Below, one piece after another: positions 407 to 21,681 of a stretch of 22,774 bases of DNA. Origin of the DNA: a virus; IMG/VR virus record IMGVR_UViG_3300032288_004148, positions 1-22,774 of that record; one strand, given 5' to 3'. Position numbers and translations under genes: made by a program. The notes under the pieces were generated by a model. The model saw only the letters and a program-made list of their open reading frames with translations, ran no database searches and was not told the origin of the DNA. Position 1 is the stretch's first letter, and each line of letters opens with the position of its first letter.

Positions 407-806
407 ACAAAGACTAACTCCTCAAGAGTTAGATGCAAGACTTAAATTCATTCTAGGAATTACTTTAGGATCAATTTTATTTATTACAGCAGTAGGCATT
501 ATGTATGCTTTAATATTTGTTACACAACCAATTACAGGACAATCAGAAAATGATAAAATGTTTTTTAATGTTCTTGGTAGCGTAGCAACATTTATTACAG
601 GAACACTTGCTGGTCTTCTTATTGGCTCATCTGGTGCTAAAGATGTAATGGCAGCACAGATTGCAAACAAAGAGGTTGATGCTAAAAATACAATGGCAGA
701 TAAAAAATTAGAAGCAGAAATTGATGAGGCTAAAGCACGTAGACTTTCAAAGCCAGATGGTGCAATGCCAGAAGAACAACCAGTTGATACTGATTGGAAT
801 AAATAA
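399..806 (+). CDS. Two-TM phage membrane protein with charged helical tail (holin candidate)
   Basis: The start is the ATG at 399, preceded by GGTGGAGGG at 382-390 as ribosome binding site; the longer same-frame ORF upstream would run antisense to the reading of the lipoprotein and has no RBS. The 135-residue protein has a charged N-terminus, TM segments at about 17-42 and 60-83 (the second rich in Gly and Thr), then a Lys/Glu/Ala-rich hydrophilic helix and an acidic tail. The TAATG junction couples its stop to the endolysin start at 806. Position and topology suit a holin or holin regulator, but this is inference; I remember similar unnamed proteins in aquatic phages. Confidence 0.75.
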   Translation: MAKQRLTPQELDARLKFILGITLGSILFITAVGIMYALIFVTQPITGQSENDKMFFNVLGSVATFITGTLAGLLIGSSGAKDVMAAQIANKEVDAKNTMADKKLEAEIDEAKARRLSKPDGAMPEEQPVDTDWNK

Positions 807-1381
807 TGGCAGAGCAAGGTACAGCAGCAAGATTAGTTGAAGTTGCTACAGAAGAAATAGGAACTGTAGAAGGTCCTAAAGATAACGAAACCAAATATGG
901 TAAGTTTACAAAAGCAGATTTTCAACCTTGGTGTGGATCATTTGTTAATTGGTGTGCTAATGAGGCTGGAGTAAAAATTCCAAATACCGTTTACACTCCT
1001 GGTGGTGCACAAGCATTTAAAAAAGCAAATTCATGGATTGACGGTGATTTAGCAGATCCAGAACCAGGCGATATTGCATATTTTGATTTTCCATCTGACG
1101 GGGTAGATAGAATTAGCCACGTAGGTATAGTAGCAGTAGACAATGGAGATGGAACAGTTTGGTGTATTGAGGGCAATACTTCTGGAGATCCTAAAGGTAG
1201 CCAAAGAAATGGTGGAGAGGTTTGTAAAAAACTTCGTGCTTTTAAGAAAAATAAAAAAGGAATTATGGTTTCAATTGTAGGGTTTGGTAGACCTAAGTTT
1301 GGCTCTGCCCCTACGGGTACTGCTAAAAAGGCTGCTGCCAAGCCTAAAACATGCTCAGAATGTGGTCAAAACATTAAATAA
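806..1381 (+). CDS. CHAP-domain endolysin
   Basis: A 191-residue peptidoglycan hydrolase of the CHAP family (Cys-His amidase/peptidase). The catalytic Cys is at residue 43 in PWCGSFVNW, the His at 105 in SHVGIV, and the third acidic/polar residue is likely Glu122 in IEGN. The spacing fits CHAP enzymes, which cleave the peptide part of murein at the end of infection. The C-terminus from about residue 165 is a low-complexity Ala/Lys/Thr/Pro linker ending in a half zinc-ribbon (Cys183-x2-Cys186), perhaps a wall-binding or trimmed domain. There is no signal peptide, so a holin is expected to release it. It is the last gene of the lysis cassette; a new promoter follows at 1388. Confidence 0.88.
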   Translation: MAEQGTAARLVEVATEEIGTVEGPKDNETKYGKFTKADFQPWCGSFVNWCANEAGVKIPNTVYTPGGAQAFKKANSWIDGDLADPEPGDIAYFDFPSDGVDRISHVGIVAVDNGDGTVWCIEGNTSGDPKGSQRNGGEVCKKLRAFKKNKKGIMVSIVGFGRPKFGSAPTGTAKKAAAKPKTCSECGQNIK

Positions 1382-1387
1382 AGGTGT

Positions 1388-1416
1388 TTGACTAAGCAAT
1401 AATCATTTGCTATACT
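1388..1416 (+). promoter_or_regulatory. Consensus sigma70-type promoter
   Basis: TTGACT at 1388-1393 is followed after exactly 17 bp by TATACT at 1411-1416. Transcription would begin near 1423, giving a leader of about 19 nt with a G-run (1431-1435) as ribosome binding site for the TTG start at 1442. It drives the paralog-protease-paralog unit. Confidence 0.7.
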
Positions 1417-1441: not shown

Positions 1442-2209
1442 TTGTTAGTAGTTCCAGAAAAAACTATTGCCTATATTCCTGTAATTAAACATAAAGCAGA
1501 TTTACCATTTGATATGGACATATCTAAATTTTTAAATCCTTTAAACAAAGATCATAAAAGAGATTGGTTTACACCACATTTTTATAAATGTTTGCCACTT
1601 TCTATAGCAAATATGCAAGGTTTGGTTTTTAGTTCTCCGTTTAGTTTTGAATTATTTTGGAATGGAAACAGCAGTCCAGAAGATTTATCTATAAACGTTT
1701 ATAATGATTCTGAAATATTAAATTTTGAAAAAATGAATCATGTAAATATTTCATCACATTTTGGACATGGTATATTTACATTTACTCTTCCCATAATGTT
1801 AAAAACCCCCCCTAACGTAAATTTAATGACAATTGCTCCACCAAACTACCCACTGCCTGCAATTAGCCCAATGAGTGGGGTAATAGAAACAGATAACTTA
1901 TCGTTTACCTTTACATTAAATTTTAAAATAGATTTTTCAAATACTTTAATAAAAGTAGAAAAAAATTATCCATTAATGGGAATAATTCCAATACCAAGAT
2001 ATTATTGTGATTCATTTGAACTTATAAATGCATATGACATTTTAAATAAAGACGATATAGAAAAAGAAAGGCAAATTTCACAAAAACAAAATTTATCTAG
2101 GGAAAAACAAAATAAATTTAATGAAAAACCAGATGGAAGATATTATAAAGGTATAGATATTATGAACAATAAATTTAAAAATCATCAATTGCCAAAGAAA
2201 AAAATATGA
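1442..2209 (+). CDS. DUF6065-like protein, copy 1 of a five-member paralog family
   Basis: A 255-residue protein with a TTG start chosen because a G-run RBS lies 6-10 nt upstream and the promoter spacing fits. It matches my memory of DUF6065: an N-terminal CLPLSIANMQG segment, an FWNG strand, an FGHGIFTF strand, KTPPNVNLM, then GVIETDN and IPIPRYYCDSFEL. The stretch with RDWFTPHFYKCLPL is almost the same as in the copy at 2752, and 45 nt there are identical. The central GVIETD and later P-L-M-G-I-I-P-I elements align with GI[VI]D-x-D and GTP...IIP elements in the genes at 11214, 18447 and 20982, and resemble dUTPase motifs 3 and 4. The biochemical role is unknown. ATGA overlap with the next gene implies translational coupling. 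Confidence 0.75.
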   Translation: MLVVPEKTIAYIPVIKHKADLPFDMDISKFLNPLNKDHKRDWFTPHFYKCLPLSIANMQGLVFSSPFSFELFWNGNSSPEDLSINVYNDSEILNFEKMNHVNISSHFGHGIFTFTLPIMLKTPPNVNLMTIAPPNYPLPAISPMSGVIETDNLSFTFTLNFKIDFSNTLIKVEKNYPLMGIIPIPRYYCDSFELINAYDILNKDDIEKERQISQKQNLSREKQNKFNEKPDGRYYKGIDIMNNKFKNHQLPKKKI

Positions 2210-2736
2210 CCGTACTTGCTGTTGTTCGTGATCAAGCAACTAATAAAATATACATGGCTGGTGACCGTGGTGCCTCAGATGATAATACAATTCTTCCATT
2301 AACATCTCCAAAGGTTTGGAAACTTGGTCCATATTTGCTTGGATACGCAGGAGCATTAGATGGAGAACGTATTAGATATAATTTTAATCCATATGTGCCA
2401 GATATAAAAGATTTAGATAAATTTATGCAAACTAAATTTATTAAACAACTTAGAAATTTTTATGAAGATTGGTGGGTAGATACCACTAAAGAAGGTGATT
2501 TAGGTCTTATTATTTGTATTAAAGGTCAAATATATGAACACAACGCTATTGATATGTCTTTGTCAAAATATAATTTAGATTATTTAGCAATGGGTTCAGG
2601 AGCAGAATATGCTTATGGATACTTATCTGCTACAGAAAAATCTAAAAATCCTCGTAATCGTGTTGTGGGAGCGGTAAACGCAGCAATAAAGTTTAGCCCA
2701 ACCTGTATGGGTCCAGTTGACGTAGTAAATATTTAA
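2206..2736 (+). CDS. HslV/proteasome-beta-like Ntn-hydrolase
   Basis: A 176-residue protein beginning Met-Thr-Val-Leu-Ala-Val. In the HslV/proteasome family the residue exposed after loss of Met is the catalytic Thr1, which fits Thr2 here. Asp20 (in AGDRGAS) and Lys36 (in SPKVWKL) are 16 residues apart, as are Asp17 and Lys33 of HslV. LLGYAGA at 44-50 matches the Gly-rich strand after them, and MGSGAEYAYG at 129-138 matches the GSGG-x-YA segment with its conserved Ser. Known family members form ring-shaped proteases driven by an ATPase. No HslU, ClpX or Mpa-like gene is in the window. The gene is coupled to the preceding DUF6065-like gene by a 4-nt overlap and followed 15 nt later by the second copy, suggesting a joint function, which is inference. 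Confidence 0.82.
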   Translation: MTVLAVVRDQATNKIYMAGDRGASDDNTILPLTSPKVWKLGPYLLGYAGALDGERIRYNFNPYVPDIKDLDKFMQTKFIKQLRNFYEDWWVDTTKEGDLGLIICIKGQIYEHNAIDMSLSKYNLDYLAMGSGAEYAYGYLSATEKSKNPRNRVVGAVNAAIKFSPTCMGPVDVVNI

Positions 2737-2751
2737 AAAAGATTATTTTAT

Positions 2752-3540
2752 ATGATAATTAACCAAGAGAATAATTTAATTGTTCCAGATAAAACTATTG
2801 TATGTTTTCCAGTAATTCCAAATAATGGAGCAATTCCTTTTAATTTAAAAAATATAAATTTATTTTTAAATCCTTTAAACAAAGATCATAAAAGAGATTG
2901 GTTTACTCCTCACTTTTATAAATGTTTGCCTTTAGCAATTGGAAATATGCAAGGTTTCGTTTTTAGTTTACCATATACTTTTAGTGTCATATGGAATGGT
3001 GGAAATCATCCAAATGATGTTTTTATAAAATATTTTGAAGATTTTGAAAAATATAAAAATATAAATTTTATTTATCCAAATTCAGAGTTTGGTAATGGTA
3101 TTTTAACAATACATTATCCATTAACACTAAAAACACCACCTGGAATAAATTTAATGACAATTGCTCCTCCAAATTTTCCACTTACTGGATTAAGCCCAAT
3201 GACTGGTGTAGTAGAATCAGATAATATTAGATTTAGTTTTACATTAAATATAAAAATAAATTTACCAAATTCAGAAATAATTATTGAAGCAAACACGCCA
3301 TTGATAGGATTATTACCAATACCTAGATATTTTTGTGATTCTTTTGAATTAAAAAGTGCATATGATATTTTTGATAAAAACATAGTAGAAGAAGAAATAA
3401 GTGTAACTAATGAACATGCTGCCTTTAGGGCATACTCAATAGACCAAAATAAAGCAAAACCAGATAGATTGTATTATACTGGAAAAGATATTAGGGGAAA
3501 TAAATTTAAAGATCATCAACTTCCTAAAAATAAAAATTGA
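2752..3540 (+). CDS. DUF6065-like protein, copy 2 of the paralog family
   Basis: A 262-residue paralog of the protein at 1442, alike along its whole length: FLNPLNKDHKRDWFTPHFYK, IGNMQG, IWNGG, FGNGILTIHYP, KTPPGINLMTIAPP, GVVESDN and LPIPRYFCDSFEL occur in the same order. It keeps the KTPPG form where copy 1 has KTPPN. The C-terminal tails of both copies share a Pro-Asp-Arg/Gly...Tyr-Tyr...Gly-Lys/Ile-Asp-Ile...Asn-Lys-Phe-Lys...His-Gln-Leu-Pro-Lys block. No Shine-Dalgarno is visible before the ATG at 2752, so translation may depend on readthrough from the protease gene. The two copies flank the Ntn protease and probably arose by tandem duplication. Function unknown. Confidence 0.75.
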   Translation: MIINQENNLIVPDKTIVCFPVIPNNGAIPFNLKNINLFLNPLNKDHKRDWFTPHFYKCLPLAIGNMQGFVFSLPYTFSVIWNGGNHPNDVFIKYFEDFEKYKNINFIYPNSEFGNGILTIHYPLTLKTPPGINLMTIAPPNFPLTGLSPMTGVVESDNIRFSFTLNIKINLPNSEIIIEANTPLIGLLPIPRYFCDSFELKSAYDIFDKNIVEEEISVTNEHAAFRAYSIDQNKAKPDRLYYTGKDIRGNKFKDHQLPKNKN

Positions 3541-3565
3541 CTTTTTTATTTAAAGGTGTTATACT
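3537..3565 (+). promoter_or_regulatory. Consensus promoter, leaderless for the gene at 3572
   Basis: TTGACT at 3537-3542 (overlapping the preceding stop codon), 17 bp, then TATACT at 3560-3565 with an upstream TG at 3557-3558 (extended -10). The next ATG starts at 3572, 6 nt after the hexamer, so the mRNA should begin at the start codon itself. Confidence 0.72.
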
Positions 3566-3571
3566 TTTTAT

Positions 3572-3790
3572 ATGACAAACTTTGATGACATTATGAAAAA
3601 AATTAGAGAAGATGAGTCTGACATTAATGAATTTGAAATTTGGCTAGAAAATGGAATTGAGCGGGGATGGGTAACAGAACCGTTCTGTAATACTCATGAA
3701 GGAGATCCTTACATGAGTGATAAAGAAGCACAAGAGTGGGAAGAGGGCGGAGACCCTTGTCAAGTAGTAATTAAAATAAACAACAACTAA
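3572..3790 (+). CDS. Small acidic protein of unknown function
   Basis: A 72-residue soluble protein rich in Asp/Glu (net strongly acidic), with Trp residues at several places and two Cys (in PFCNTHEGDPYMSD and GGDPCQVV). No family recognised. The start is fixed by the leaderless promoter at 3537-3565, since the ATG lies 6 nt from the -10 box and there is no RBS. It is followed 13 nt later by a secreted protein gene with its own GGGG-type RBS, so the two probably share a transcript. Confidence 0.65.
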   Translation: MTNFDDIMKKIREDESDINEFEIWLENGIERGWVTEPFCNTHEGDPYMSDKEAQEWEEGGDPCQVVIKINNN

Positions 3791-3803: not shown

Positions 3804-4484
3804 ATGAAAATAAAAAATAAAATTATTGGTACAATTTTTAGTGTAATTGTATCATCATTTGTATTTATTACGGTTTCAGAATCAGCAAATGCGGGAGAAT
3901 GTTCTACTTTAGATCCATGCCATACTTATGCAGTTTTAGATGATTCTGGAGTTGTAATAAACACTATTGTATGTCAGCCATCATTTTGTGGTGGAGGAAT
4001 TCTTCCAAATGGCAATAAAGTAGTTCCACAAGTATCAGCAAATGCTGAAGGAAAAAATCAAGGTGGACATTATAATCCTCCAGGTAGTGGTAAAGAAGTT
4101 GTCTACTCAAACGGCACTTTTACAATAAATAATCAAATTGTTGTTAATAAAGTTGATGTAGTTGTAGATTCACAAAAAATTGAAACAAGCACCGTTTCCG
4201 TTTCTATATCTGAAGGAAACAAAAATATTTTTACTTATGAAAATACAATTGGGAAAACTTTGGATAAAATTGAGTTTACTACTTTGCCACTTGACAATAA
4301 TGTTAGTGCAACTATTAGTGCATCTGAAATAACTTCTACTTCCACAATAACAGAATCAACAACACTTCACGAAAGAAAAACTGCGGAAGAAGTATCTTCT
4401 ATACTTACACAAAGAAATTTAAATTTGTTACAATCAAGAATCAATAGATTGTTAATACTTTTAGATGGTTGGATAAAAAAGTAA
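3804..4484 (+). CDS. Secreted protein with Sec signal peptide, unknown function
   Basis: A 226-residue protein with a classical Sec signal: Lys-rich N-terminus, hydrophobic core at about 8-25, and a signal-peptidase site after Ala-Asn-Ala near residue 31. The mature part has four Cys in its first 35 residues (ECSTLDPC, IVCQPSFC) followed by Gly-rich GGGILPNG, then a long Ser/Thr/Val-rich beta-like region and a C-terminal amphipathic helix rich in Leu/Arg. No lipobox or sortase motif. AAAAGGGG at 3792-3799 is the RBS. A phage-coded exported protein could act at the host surface, for example in superinfection exclusion, but this is speculation. The window holds a second, unrelated secreted protein at 19681-20079. 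Confidence 0.7.
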   Translation: MKIKNKIIGTIFSVIVSSFVFITVSESANAGECSTLDPCHTYAVLDDSGVVINTIVCQPSFCGGGILPNGNKVVPQVSANAEGKNQGGHYNPPGSGKEVVYSNGTFTINNQIVVNKVDVVVDSQKIETSTVSVSISEGNKNIFTYENTIGKTLDKIEFTTLPLDNNVSATISASEITSTSTITESTTLHERKTAEEVSSILTQRNLNLLQSRINRLLILLDGWIKK

Positions 4485-4717: not shown

Positions 4718-5137
4718 ATGGTAAGTTCGTTTACATTGGATCTTTTTAAGGATCCATTTTTTATTGGTTTCAATCGTGAATTGGACCGTTTAAGTACAGT
4801 ACATAATCTAGCAACTCGTCAGGCATATCCGCCATACGATATTTTAAAACTAGACGAAGATACATATAAACTATCTTTGGCTGTTGCTGGATTTTCAAAA
4901 ACAGATATTGATGTTTCAGTAGATAATGGAACATTAATAATTAAAGGTGAAATAGCAGAAGTAACAGATGCTGAAGTTGTTCATAAGGGAATTGCTGCTC
5001 GTAAATTTACTCGCACATTTGCTCTTGGTGAATACATGGAAGTATCTAGTGCTGAACTTAAGGATGGCATGCTTACAGTTAATATTGTTCGTGTTGTTCC
5101 TGAAGACAAGAAGCCTAAAGTAATTAAAATCAAGTAA
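4718..5137 (+). CDS. Small heat-shock protein, Hsp20/alpha-crystallin (IbpA-like)
   Basis: A 139-residue ATP-independent chaperone of the Hsp20 family. A short N-terminal arm (1-38) has Phe-rich LFKDPFFIGF. The alpha-crystallin domain begins at YPPYDILK (about 39) and includes LAVAGF, VDNGTLIIKGE, the ARKFTRTFAL strand, and the ELKDGMLTVNI strand ending at about 127. The C-terminal KPKVIKIK carries the I-x-I type motif used for oligomer assembly. The length matches IbpA. Hsp20 genes are frequent in aquatic phages, where they may aid virion protein folding. AAAGGAG at 4706-4712 gives a strong RBS. The gene sits just downstream of two tRNAs and has its own promoter and structured leader. Confidence 0.93.
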   Translation: MVSSFTLDLFKDPFFIGFNRELDRLSTVHNLATRQAYPPYDILKLDEDTYKLSLAVAGFSKTDIDVSVDNGTLIIKGEIAEVTDAEVVHKGIAARKFTRTFALGEYMEVSSAELKDGMLTVNIVRVVPEDKKPKVIKIK

Positions 5138-10857: not shown

Positions 10858-11217
10858 ATGGAAATGATGTTTTTGGTATTTTTTGCTACTCTTTCTTTTT
10901 CCTTTGGGCTATCGTATTGGGTAACATCTAATAAATTAAAAAAATCTAACCTATTGTTGGCTGAACTTTTTATAAAAAACAAAGCACTTGAAAAATTAAA
11001 CTTTCAAACCAATAACGAAATTAATATTTCTGAAGATACATTACATAGAGAAAACTTTATAAAATTTTTATCTGATTCTAGAGATTGGGCATTTGAATAT
11101 ATTGAAAAATCACAGCAAACTATTAAAGAAATTTCAGATGAATTAAAGGTAAAAGGTTTGCATGACTATTCTGACAAACTTTTAACGCTTTTACCAGAAA
11201 AAAATATAAATAAATGA
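10858..11217 (+). CDS. Membrane-anchored coiled-coil phage protein
   Basis: A 119-residue protein from the ATG at 10858 (an upstream in-frame start would overlap the glycosylase gene by more than 40 nt). It has an N-terminal TM anchor (about 3-22), then a Lys/Glu/Leu-rich helix with heptad-like hydrophobic spacing, and a core NFIKFLSDSRDWAFEYIEKSQ which I remember from other actinophage proteins of unknown function. A TACAAT at 10845-10850, 7 nt upstream of the ATG, may give a weak leaderless start. It overlaps the next gene by 4 nt. Confidence 0.65.
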   Translation: MEMMFLVFFATLSFSFGLSYWVTSNKLKKSNLLLAELFIKNKALEKLNFQTNNEINISEDTLHRENFIKFLSDSRDWAFEYIEKSQQTIKEISDELKVKGLHDYSDKLLTLLPEKNINK

Positions 11218-11933
11218 AAAATAATAAAAAAGTTTATTTTATTCCTACAACAAAACAAGCAGAAATTTTAGATAAACACCCCCAACCATCAAAATATTAT
11301 ATTCCAAAATGGTATAAAGACATGAAAAATGAAACAGAAACATTGGATGGAAGAAAAATTCCCAGTGCAAAAATGTGTATTCCATTTTTAGACTCTTTTA
11401 CTACTGGATATACTCAAGAATTACCAGCAGATATTGAGTTTATTTTTGTTGGCATTGATCCAGACACTGGTAGAGATCTGTATAGTTATAAATGGTCTGG
11501 AGAATTTAGACCTGTATCAAGTAGAGGTGAAGAATTAGGAGAAAAAAATATTTTTCCAAAATTTGATGGATACAGTAATTCAGAATTTCATTGGAACTCT
11601 GTTTGGGAACCAAAGACCCCTAAAGGATATAGCACAATATATTTTCATCCAAATAACAGGTTAGATTTACCATTTCACACTTTAACTGGAATAATAGATA
11701 CAGATAAATGGTCTATTGGTGGACCAGTTCCATTTTTATTAAAAAGTGGTTTTTCTGGAATAATACCCGCAGGAACACCAATTTATCAATTTGTTTTTAT
11801 AAAAAGAGATAAATGGAAATATTTTAAAGAAAAATTTAATGATGAGAATATTAGAAAAAACGCATATAAAATAAAAAGATTTCTTTTAAATGGATATAAA
11901 AAAATAATTTGGCAAAAAAAGGAATATTTATAA
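11214..11933 (+). CDS. Paralog-family protein, long form (copy 3 of 5)
   Basis: A 239-residue protein sharing architecture with those at 18447 and 20982. Its N-terminus has YYIPKWYKDM (28-37), then KMCIPFLDSFTTGY (53-66) and LPAD (70-73). The C-terminal half has KTPKGYSTIYFHP (124-136), LPF-x-TLTGIIDTD (152-164) and IIPAGTPIYQF (183-193). The GIIDTD and GTPI elements are 28 residues apart, close to the distance between dUTPase motif 3 (GVIDxD) and motif 4 (GDRIAQ) in the family as I remember it. The motif-5 Gly-rich tail of dUTPases is absent and the residue after D-x-D is Lys, not Tyr, so dUTPase activity is unlikely. Function unknown; coupled to the preceding gene by 4 nt. Confidence 0.72.
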   Translation: MKNNKKVYFIPTTKQAEILDKHPQPSKYYIPKWYKDMKNETETLDGRKIPSAKMCIPFLDSFTTGYTQELPADIEFIFVGIDPDTGRDLYSYKWSGEFRPVSSRGEELGEKNIFPKFDGYSNSEFHWNSVWEPKTPKGYSTIYFHPNNRLDLPFHTLTGIIDTDKWSIGGPVPFLLKSGFSGIIPAGTPIYQFVFIKRDKWKYFKEKFNDENIRKNAYKIKRFLLNGYKKIIWQKKEYL

Positions 11934-18446: not shown

Positions 18447-19160
18447 TTATTTATAGTTTTTAGGAACCCTGATTGTTCTTGAATAAGAACTAATGATGGT
18501 TGTTTTTAATTTTTCCATATTAAAATAATATTGATTAGGCTTTTCTAATACAAAATCTGATTCCCAATTTTCTCTTTTTATAGGTATTATTTGAAACATT
18601 GGAGTGCCCTTTTTTATTATTCCTTCAAAATTATTTTTTATTAGTATTGGAGTATTTATATCAGTTTCAAAATTATCTGTATCAACTATCCCAGATATTG
18701 CCCTAATTGGTAAATTAGGATATGCAATTGGATGTGTAATTAAACATGACCAACCAGGCGGTGTTTTTATTGTCCATCCATGATAATATTTGAATATAGT
18801 TGGAGAAAATCCATCTGAAATCTCATAAGTTGAAACTTGTGCTGGTGACCAAACGTCAAATACTTGTTCTTGTGTTGTCCATTTTATAAATGGTAAACCA
18901 TTTTCTTGAGATACCATTACATCAGCCCACAATGGAACTATATAGCCAGCAGTAATTGCATCAAGAGTTGGAGCACATTTTTTTACAGTAACAGATGGAT
19001 ATGGACTCAGTGTTAATTTATTGTCATGGCTAGAATAGGGTGGCATTTGTTTCCACCAATTTGGCAATTCTTTAGATGCTGGATATGGTTTTTGACGAAC
19101 TTCCCAAACATGTTCTCTTTGTGCTCTAAAGGTAATTTTGTTTTTATTTTTAAATTTCAT
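18447..19160 (-). CDS. Paralog-family protein, long form (copy 4 of 5)
   Basis: A 237-residue protein from the ATG at 19160, with AGAGGA 6-11 nt upstream. It has ELPNWWKQM (31-39), KKCAPTLDAITAGY (60-73), PLWAD (76-80), KTPPGW (132-137), ISGIVDTD (145-152) and KKGTPMFQIIPIKRENW (173-189). The same elements occur in order in copies 3 and 5, and the C-terminal half aligns with the DUF6065-like pair. The G147-D150 and G175-Q180 elements are arranged like dUTPase motifs 3 and 4, though the active-site Tyr is replaced by Asn. Function unknown. It is the last gene of a short minus-strand unit with two small genes upstream. Confidence 0.72.
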   Translation of the reverse strand: MKFKNKNKITFRAQREHVWEVRQKPYPASKELPNWWKQMPPYSSHDNKLTLSPYPSVTVKKCAPTLDAITAGYIVPLWADVMVSQENGLPFIKWTTQEQVFDVWSPAQVSTYEISDGFSPTIFKYYHGWTIKTPPGWSCLITHPIAYPNLPIRAISGIVDTDNFETDINTPILIKNNFEGIIKKGTPMFQIIPIKRENWESDFVLEKPNQYYFNMEKLKTTIISSYSRTIRVPKNYK

Positions 19161-19362
19161 TTTGTCCTCTAGCAATTGCAGCAGATGCTTCAAAGGCTTT
19201 TTGTGTTCTACGAGATTTTAAAAAACCTTTTGATTTCCAAAGTGGAATGGTTGCTTCAATGTCTTTGGCTATTTGCTCTCTTATTTCTTTGACAGTAAAA
19301 ACAATAAAGTTCCAAACATCCTCTTTTTGTTTATCATTAAGTTCATCAGTCCAGTTACTCAT
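19150..19362 (-). CDS. Small helical protein
   Basis: A 70-residue protein starting at the ATG at 19362 with GAGGAAG a few bases upstream; the longer in-frame start (19374) lacks this. It is mostly amphipathic helix with a WNFIVFTVKEIREQIAKDIE core and a basic SKGFLKSRRTQKAFEA stretch. No family recognised. It overlaps the gene upstream by 8 nt and the paralog gene downstream by 11 nt. Confidence 0.62.
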   Translation of the reverse strand: MSNWTDELNDKQKEDVWNFIVFTVKEIREQIAKDIEATIPLWKSKGFLKSRRTQKAFEASAAIARGQNEI

Positions 19363-20796: not shown

Positions 20797-20985
20797 ATGT
20801 GTCCACACTGTAATAACCCACTAATTCCAATACTATATGGATATGCTAATCCCAAATATGTAGATATGCACAAAGAAGGTTTGATATTTTTAGTCTCTAC
20901 CACTTACCATACCAAGAATGATCCTACTTCATACTGTAAAAAATGTGAAGAGAGTTTTGATATTAAAATAAAACATAATTTTTAA
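20797..20985 (+). CDS. Small zinc-ribbon protein
   Basis: A 62-residue protein with C-x2-C pairs at the N-terminus (CPHC at 2-5) and near the C-terminus (CKKC at about 47-50), joined by about 40 residues with a LIFLVSTTYH beta stretch. The four Cys fit a zinc ribbon. It begins one base after the preceding stop, with no clear RBS, so coupling is likely. Its stop overlaps that of the convergent paralog gene by 3 nt. Confidence 0.66.
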   Translation: MCPHCNNPLIPILYGYANPKYVDMHKEGLIFLVSTTYHTKNDPTSYCKKCEESFDIKIKHNF

Positions 20986-21665
20986 TCATATTGTTTACGT
21001 GTCCAAAAGGTTTTTTTATACCAACCAGATGCAACTGATGCAGACCTTTCATCATTTTTTAGACCATCTTTAACTAAACCTTTTGTTTCTTTAGATATCC
21101 AATTTTCTTGACAATATGGTATTATTTGAATTATTGGGGTCCCTTGATTGATTATTCCTTCAAAATCTTTTTTAATAAAAAATGGAATATTTCCACTAAC
21201 ACTTGTAGTGAATCCTCCGTCAATAATACCACTTAATGTTGTAAAAGGTAAATCATGTCTATTTAGTGGATGAGTATAAAGCATGCTATATCCTACTGGT
21301 ACAGATGTTGCAGCAGCAGCATGCCAGACAAACTCTGTTGGACTATGCCCAGTTGGAATTAAATTTAAATTATTTGGTGATTTTCTTGCTTGTGGTGGAA
21401 AAACAGAGTACCTCCAAGAAATATATGGCTCTCCATTATTATTTTTAACATAAAGATCATTTGGCAAAACAATCATATATCCACTAATAAAAGAATCTAA
21501 AAGTGGAACACAGTGTTTAATTCCATGGTTATCAAATGTTTCATTATCTTTTAGTTTTGGCTCTTTTTTATACCATTCTGGGACATGATTTTTAGCAGGT
21601 GTAACTATATTAGGATATACTTCTATGGCGGATTCATATTTAAGTACTGGTTTTTTTCTAAACAT
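20982..21665 (-). CDS. Paralog-family protein, long form (copy 5 of 5)
   Basis: A 227-residue protein from the ATG at 21665, chosen because the -10 box at 21673-21678 overlaps the alternative in-frame ATG at 21674. It has HVPEWYKK, KHCVPLLDSFISGYM, LPNDLYV, GYSMLYTHPLNRHDLPFTTLSGIIDGG and INQGTPIIQIIP, given in parts, all in the same order as in copies 3 and 4. It is closest to copy 3 in the HPLNRHDLPF segment (HPNNRLDLPF there). GIIDGG replaces GI[VI]DTD, so the second Asp is lost. The gap to GTP is 29 residues against 28 in copies 3 and 4. Function unknown. It converges with the zinc-ribbon gene. Confidence 0.72.
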   Translation of the reverse strand: MFRKKPVLKYESAIEVYPNIVTPAKNHVPEWYKKEPKLKDNETFDNHGIKHCVPLLDSFISGYMIVLPNDLYVKNNNGEPYISWRYSVFPPQARKSPNNLNLIPTGHSPTEFVWHAAAATSVPVGYSMLYTHPLNRHDLPFTTLSGIIDGGFTTSVSGNIPFFIKKDFEGIINQGTPIIQIIPYCQENWISKETKGLVKDGLKNDERSASVASGWYKKTFWTRKQYD

Positions 21666-21672
21666 ATCTATC

Positions 21673-21681
21673 ATTGTATCA
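21673..21681 (-). promoter_or_regulatory. Extended -10 promoter, leaderless for copy 5
   Basis: On the minus strand TGATACAAT (21681-21673), with TACAAT followed 7 nt later by the ATG at 21665. No clear -35 is visible, and there is no RBS. Confidence 0.52.

Follow-up and report, generated by a model that had tools for sequence, protein, structure and literature searches.

The locus described here raises the question of whether a viral gene resembling the bacterial peptidase HslV encodes a genuine member of the proteasome family and, if so, which of its neighbours works with it. The window, i.e., the whole stretch of DNA analysed, is 22,774 nucleotides long (IMG/VR record IMGVR_UViG_3300032288_004148), and its features are listed in Table 1. 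The first-pass annotation had placed the protease in a three-gene cassette with the DUF6065-like genes on either side, here called D1 and D2.

Table 1. Coordinates and characteristics of the features of the protease locus in the window.
Feature	Position	Strand	Remarks
CHAP-domain endolysin	806–1381	+	191 aa; in close relatives mostly followed by the protease after 61–66 nt
Promoter-like element	1388–1416	+	TTGACT-17-TATACT, extended -10; between lysin and next gene
DUF6065 paralog D1	1442–2209	+	TTG start; PF19541/DUF6065 4.8e-38
HslV/BPH-like N-terminal-threonine protease ORF	2206–2736	+	176 aa; ATG-Thr start
DUF6065 paralog D2	2752–3540	+	Between protease and orf72; PF19541/DUF6065 5e-34
orf72	3572–3790	+	Acidic small protein, 72 aa; invariant C-x2-H and D-P-C
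Hsp20 small heat-shock protein	4718–5137	+	Of 51 sufficiently long close loci, 45 have it at most 5 kb downstream of the protease
Further DUF6065-type gene (PHROG_7084)	11214–11933	+	
Further DUF6065-type gene (PHROG_7084)	18447–19193	-	
Further DUF6065-type gene (PHROG_7084)	20982–21674	-	

Identity of the phage protease

The protease is translated with Thr2, Asp20, and, 16 residues further on, Lys36, together with GYAG at residues 46–49 (the oxyanion loop) and GSGxxYA at 130–136, so that every residue and motif cited by the first-pass annotation is present in the protein. Its reading of an HslV-like protease whose N-terminal threonine and other catalytic residues are intact is likewise borne out by the family match, the structure match, and the conservation described below. 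PHROG_1040, annotated as "peptidase HslV family", matches the protein over its whole length (3e-16, residues 1–176). The Pfam family "Proteasome" gives a weak match below the cut-off (0.0046), and the NCBIfam HslV equivalog TIGR03692 has a cut-off of 157.75 bits, of which the protein reaches 14, a score that sets it apart from HslV proper. The single sequence has no real match in the PDB by phmmer; a profile of 32 relatives searched against PDB sequences found BPH (5ovu, 4.3e-9) and HslV (1m4y, 7.4e-9) as best matches.

The AlphaFold (AF2) model of the protease (pLDDT 92.7, pTM 0.89) has the alpha-beta-beta-alpha Ntn fold and matches HslV/BPH in Foldseek at 1e-12. HslV and BPH entries overall reach Z 18–20 across approximately 165 residues of the model; by VIA, the values are Z 20.2 and 2.6 A over 163 residues for Staphylococcus aureus HslV, and Z 20.0 and 2.5 A over 165 residues for T. 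denitrificans BPH. Where a PDB entry numbers the threonine as 1, model residue 2 aligns with chain residue 1. The fold, Thr1/Asp17/Lys33, and the oxyanion loop of the structures 6kr1, 1m4y, 5ovt, and 5ovu are thus found in the protease, but identity to bacterial HslV/BPH is only approximately 17%–23%, and an HslU partner, which HslV possesses, was not found for the phage protein in the window or in the long related records. Placement relative to the Ntn-hydrolase clan had been set beforehand as a test, and PHROG_1040, the PDB profile matches, and the superposition of the model all keep the protease within that clan. On these profile and model comparisons, it is placed within the proteasome family on the HslV/BPH branch, as a member of the already known phage family PHROG_1040.

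PHROG_1040 includes proteins of T5-like phages, Vibrio phage phiTY18, and others, whose homology to the window protease is full-length but amounts to only 25%–31% identity. The homologs of Salmonella phage S124 and phiTY18 have the Met-Thr start, the Asp and Lys positions, and the glycines in common with it, while their contexts differ: the S124 gene lies between thymidylate synthase and RNase H, the phiTY18 gene is accompanied by a probable S49 peptidase gene, and the window protease lies between a CHAP lysin and orf72. Phage proteasome homologs have been catalogued, and we know of no characterised one. A comparable protein is PPH, which is likewise encoded by phages and grouped with HslV/BPH among the proteasome homologs; it is described as having approximately 140 residues and no helix H2 (Fuchs et al., 2021; PMC8665760). 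Compared with that description of PPH, the window protease is longer, with helices at residues 53–59 and 70–88 of its model.

One scan of IMG/VR recovered 382 relatives of the protease. One pattern scan of 84,980 bacterial genomes, limited by its pattern, gave no bacterial homolog, and the phiTY18 protein used as a query found nothing. A distant relative (L165, 774–1346) occupies, as judged by eye, a probable TerS–TerL position, where TerL possibly contains an intein.

Conservation and selection

Among 109 non-identical relatives, M1, T2, G19, K36, G46, G130, and G132 are invariant; the Met-Thr start was used to pick full-length proteins for this set, so the invariance of M1 and T2 is partly by construction. 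The same start is present in all 32 rows of an alignment that was not selected in this way (A6). G49 is kept in 106 of the 109 proteins. At residue 20, 105 proteins have Asp and four have Glu (L024 2049–2579, L026 8001–8531, L031 3295–3825, and L040 5925–6455); the latter are natural variants whose activity may be reduced or lost through the Glu at the Asp17 position.

The protease is under purifying selection, with a dN/dS below that of its neighbours. Median pairwise values, taken over sequence pairs that are not independent, are 0.064 for the protease, 0.112 for the lysin, 0.135 for orf72, 0.143 for Hsp20, and 0.271 for D1/D2-type DUF6065.

Locus organization and the DUF6065 genes

The relatives were divided into 71 distinct close loci (87%–98% identity) and distant loci (58%–74% identity). 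The usual order in the close loci is CHAP lysin, a gap of 61–66 nt, protease, a gap of 15 nt, orf72, variable genes, and Hsp20; in only six of 44 distant loci does the lysin immediately precede the protease. The gene after orf72 in the window (3804–4484) encodes a secreted-looking, fast-evolving protein, often with 30%–40% identity between close relatives and with no reliable family match.

The gap between lysin and protease in relatives contains a conserved TTGACT-17-TATAAT-like element with an extended -10 and a GGGG ribosome-binding site. A promoter scan of the region gave a site total not above that of shuffles, and the element at 1388–1416 was conserved and tied for best. It stands directly before the protease in relatives without D1 and before D1 in the window, from which D1 appears to have been inserted between the promoter or leader and the protease. 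The protease of the window is then probably translated by coupling to D1. A second promoter-like copy (TTGACT-17-TATACT, extended -10) is present at 3537–3565, just before orf72, which may therefore keep its own promoter after the insertion of D2.

The local arrangement noted in the first pass is accurate: D1 and the protease share 4 nt, the ATGA at the end of D1 that includes the protease start codon, and a second DUF6065-like gene does follow the protease. The cassette itself, in which the paralogs would be substrates, adaptors, or cofactors working with the protease, did not hold up when the same gene order was sought in relatives. DUF6065–protease–DUF6065 occurs in one of the 71 close loci, which is the window itself, and in none of 44 more distant loci with both flanks, so the neighbourhood is not conserved. 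An upstream, D1-type gene is present in two of 56 distinct close loci, and DUF6065 adjoins the protease in one of 51 loci at 58%–74% identity. In favour of the cassette are the overlap with D1, the 13 of 70 distinct close loci in which a DUF6065 gene comes immediately after the protease (in several of them with a 4-nt overlap of the protease stop), and the position of DUF6065 beside the protease in four of the six long records that have a high-scoring DUF6065 gene. Against it, many records with the protease are without any DUF6065 nearby, and unrelated cargo occupies the same slots. Upstream, L010 and L013 carry a sulfotransferase-like gene; downstream, L010, L012, L018, and L046 carry an SGNH-like gene with a NodU-type carbamoyltransferase (these names were given by eye from the sequence), and L043 and L053 a JmjC-like gene (in L043 with a sub-threshold match to Pfam JmjC_2). 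The L010/L013 insert is of DUF6065 size and was rejected as a DUF6065 gene. DUF6065 genes are also found away from the protease, at three other places in the window and in haloarchaeal viruses and cyanophages, and their predicted fold (below) is dUTPase-like, which also speaks against a cassette. A working cassette is accordingly very improbable. Both flanking slots in close relatives hold DUF6065, other cargo, or nothing, and the DUF6065 genes are optional, interchangeable cargo rather than constant partners. What survives of the association is that a D1/D2-type gene lies beside the protease in approximately one in five close relatives, above the expectation for random positions.

D1 and D2 belong to DUF6065 (PF19541)/PHROG_7084, for which no function is recorded in Pfam or PHROGs, and no paper naming DUF6065 was found in the literature searched. 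Five paralogs of this family lie within the one 22.8-kb phage fragment; D1 used as a query against viral contigs found nothing. For the D2 model (pLDDT 80.7), the 50 best Foldseek rows are all dUTPases, some of them repressor-bound (lowest E 1.4e-3), and by VIA, they reach Z up to 9.6 over 115–128 residues, covering whole dUTPase chains. The DUF6065 profile has a single match among PDB sequences, a dUTPase at motif III, which at E 1.3 is not significant alone. The catalytic motif II PRS(S/G) is missing in 34 of 34 aligned DUF6065 members. The model thus points to a fold like that of dUTPases, with the PRS motif missing. The paralog at 18447 has relatives in haloarchaeal viruses and cyanophages; those of the haloarchaeal virus HRTV-5 (L246, 4881–5723) and the cyanophage S-RIM4 (L247, 3953–4747) lie near ribonucleotide reductase genes, and this setting fits a nucleotide-related role.

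The constant neighbour orf72

The small gene orf72 is a newly recognised neighbour of the protease. It lies at most 1 kb downstream in all 51 loci at 58%–74% identity (directly adjacent in 47) and in 53 of 69 close loci, and of 129 distinct loci, 86 have a gap of exactly 15 nt between the protease stop and orf72. The window departs from this arrangement, as D2 has pushed orf72 away from the protease. The invariant residues of the product are C39-x2-H42 and D61-P62-C63. It has no match in Pfam, PHROG, or NCBIfam, and the pattern-limited scan of the 84,980 bacterial genomes gave one doubtful 13-residue match, in a Planctomycetota MAG. In the most distant relatives, orf72 is not near the protease, and the linkage could be plain synteny. 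From the gene order, we infer that orf72, as an adaptor, regulator, or substrate, is the best partner candidate of the protease and a better one than DUF6065.

Search for an ATPase partner

The first-pass annotation had seen no ATPase partner in the window and proposed a search for an HslU/ClpX-like ATPase beyond it. Neither the window nor any of 25 related records of 44–118 kb, none of which is known to be complete, gave a match to the AAA_2 family (HslU/ClpX-type), whereas all 14 control genomes were positive. PF00004 gave six weak matches of approximately 15 bits; the two that were examined (L151 and L152) were rejected as unfoldases, being small kinase–nucleotidyltransferase fusions. These fusions, which join a P-loop kinase-like N-terminus to a nucleotidyltransferase-like C-terminus, recur in the clade (L151 904–1671, minus strand; L152 1477–2250). 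A phage ATPase could have been missed in these possibly incomplete records, or a host unfoldase could be used.

In the latter case, the protease would dock onto an AAA+ unfoldase of the host and redirect protein degradation in the host. The hosts of T5-like phages have HslU, and T5-like phages carry a PHROG_1040 member, which is in line with such docking. The phage context of the window is, however, actinobacterial: a WhiB regulator is encoded in the window, the closest matches to RecA from the related record G002 come from Streptomyces phages (45%), and the lysin matches are mostly from actinophages. Together, these point to actinobacterial hosts for the phage clade. Actinobacteria, to our knowledge, are generally without HslU, and docking on a host unfoldase is improbable here.

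Proposed mode of action

A narrower activity has also to be considered, in which the protein is a processing protease or a connectase-like transpeptidase acting on one phage or host protein, with orf72 as a possible substrate or inhibitor. The lack of an ATPase match and the many loci in which a small protein with conserved Cys and His is encoded 15 nt behind the protease are in agreement with it, and precedents exist, as connectase, a homolog of the proteasome, works as a ligase, and several proteasome homologs may not build stacked rings (Fuchs et al., 2021; PMC8665760). The helices, length, and residues of the protease are close to those of HslV/BPH, which makes the narrower activity rather unlikely.

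The locus as a whole is probably best explained by a phage HslV/BPH-like threonine peptidase with a ring chamber and no phage unfoldase, for which orf72 is the foremost partner candidate and DUF6065 is optional. Host methionine aminopeptidase, from what is known of this enzyme, would cleave off Met1 and leave Thr2 at the N-terminus as nucleophile, and no propeptide would be needed. The subunits would then form a small closed ring, as HslV or BPH does, and peptides or unfolded proteins would be cleaved in its chamber with no phage unfoldase dedicated to the task. In relatives, a conserved promoter of its own, immediately behind the lysis gene, would drive the protease, and the orf72 product would be made alongside it as its candidate partner, while D1 and D2 would be optional insertions with a predicted dUTPase-like fold that the protease does not need. 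The protease is thus most likely an ATPase-independent, self-compartmentalising peptidase, whose activity, ring assembly, and ATPase independence we infer from these comparisons. A further step is put forward tentatively, with the odds against it: that an ATPase-independent HslV-like protease and the Cys/His protein orf72 make up a two-gene phage module, conserved throughout a large freshwater actinophage clade, in which orf72 is dedicated to the protease as adaptor, regulator, or substrate.

Host range and significance

The phages are presumably of freshwater origin; two papers on freshwater actinophages make no mention of HslV or a protease. For the AAH homologs, it was reported that no actinobacteria-specific phages encoding them could be found (Fuchs et al., 2021; PMC8665760). 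In the present analysis, several hundred phage contigs, actinophage-like where examined, encode an HslV/BPH-like homolog. The predicted dUTPase-like fold offers a first structural lead for DUF6065, a Pfam family of unknown function, and the constant small-gene neighbour, orf72, makes the function of the protease testable.
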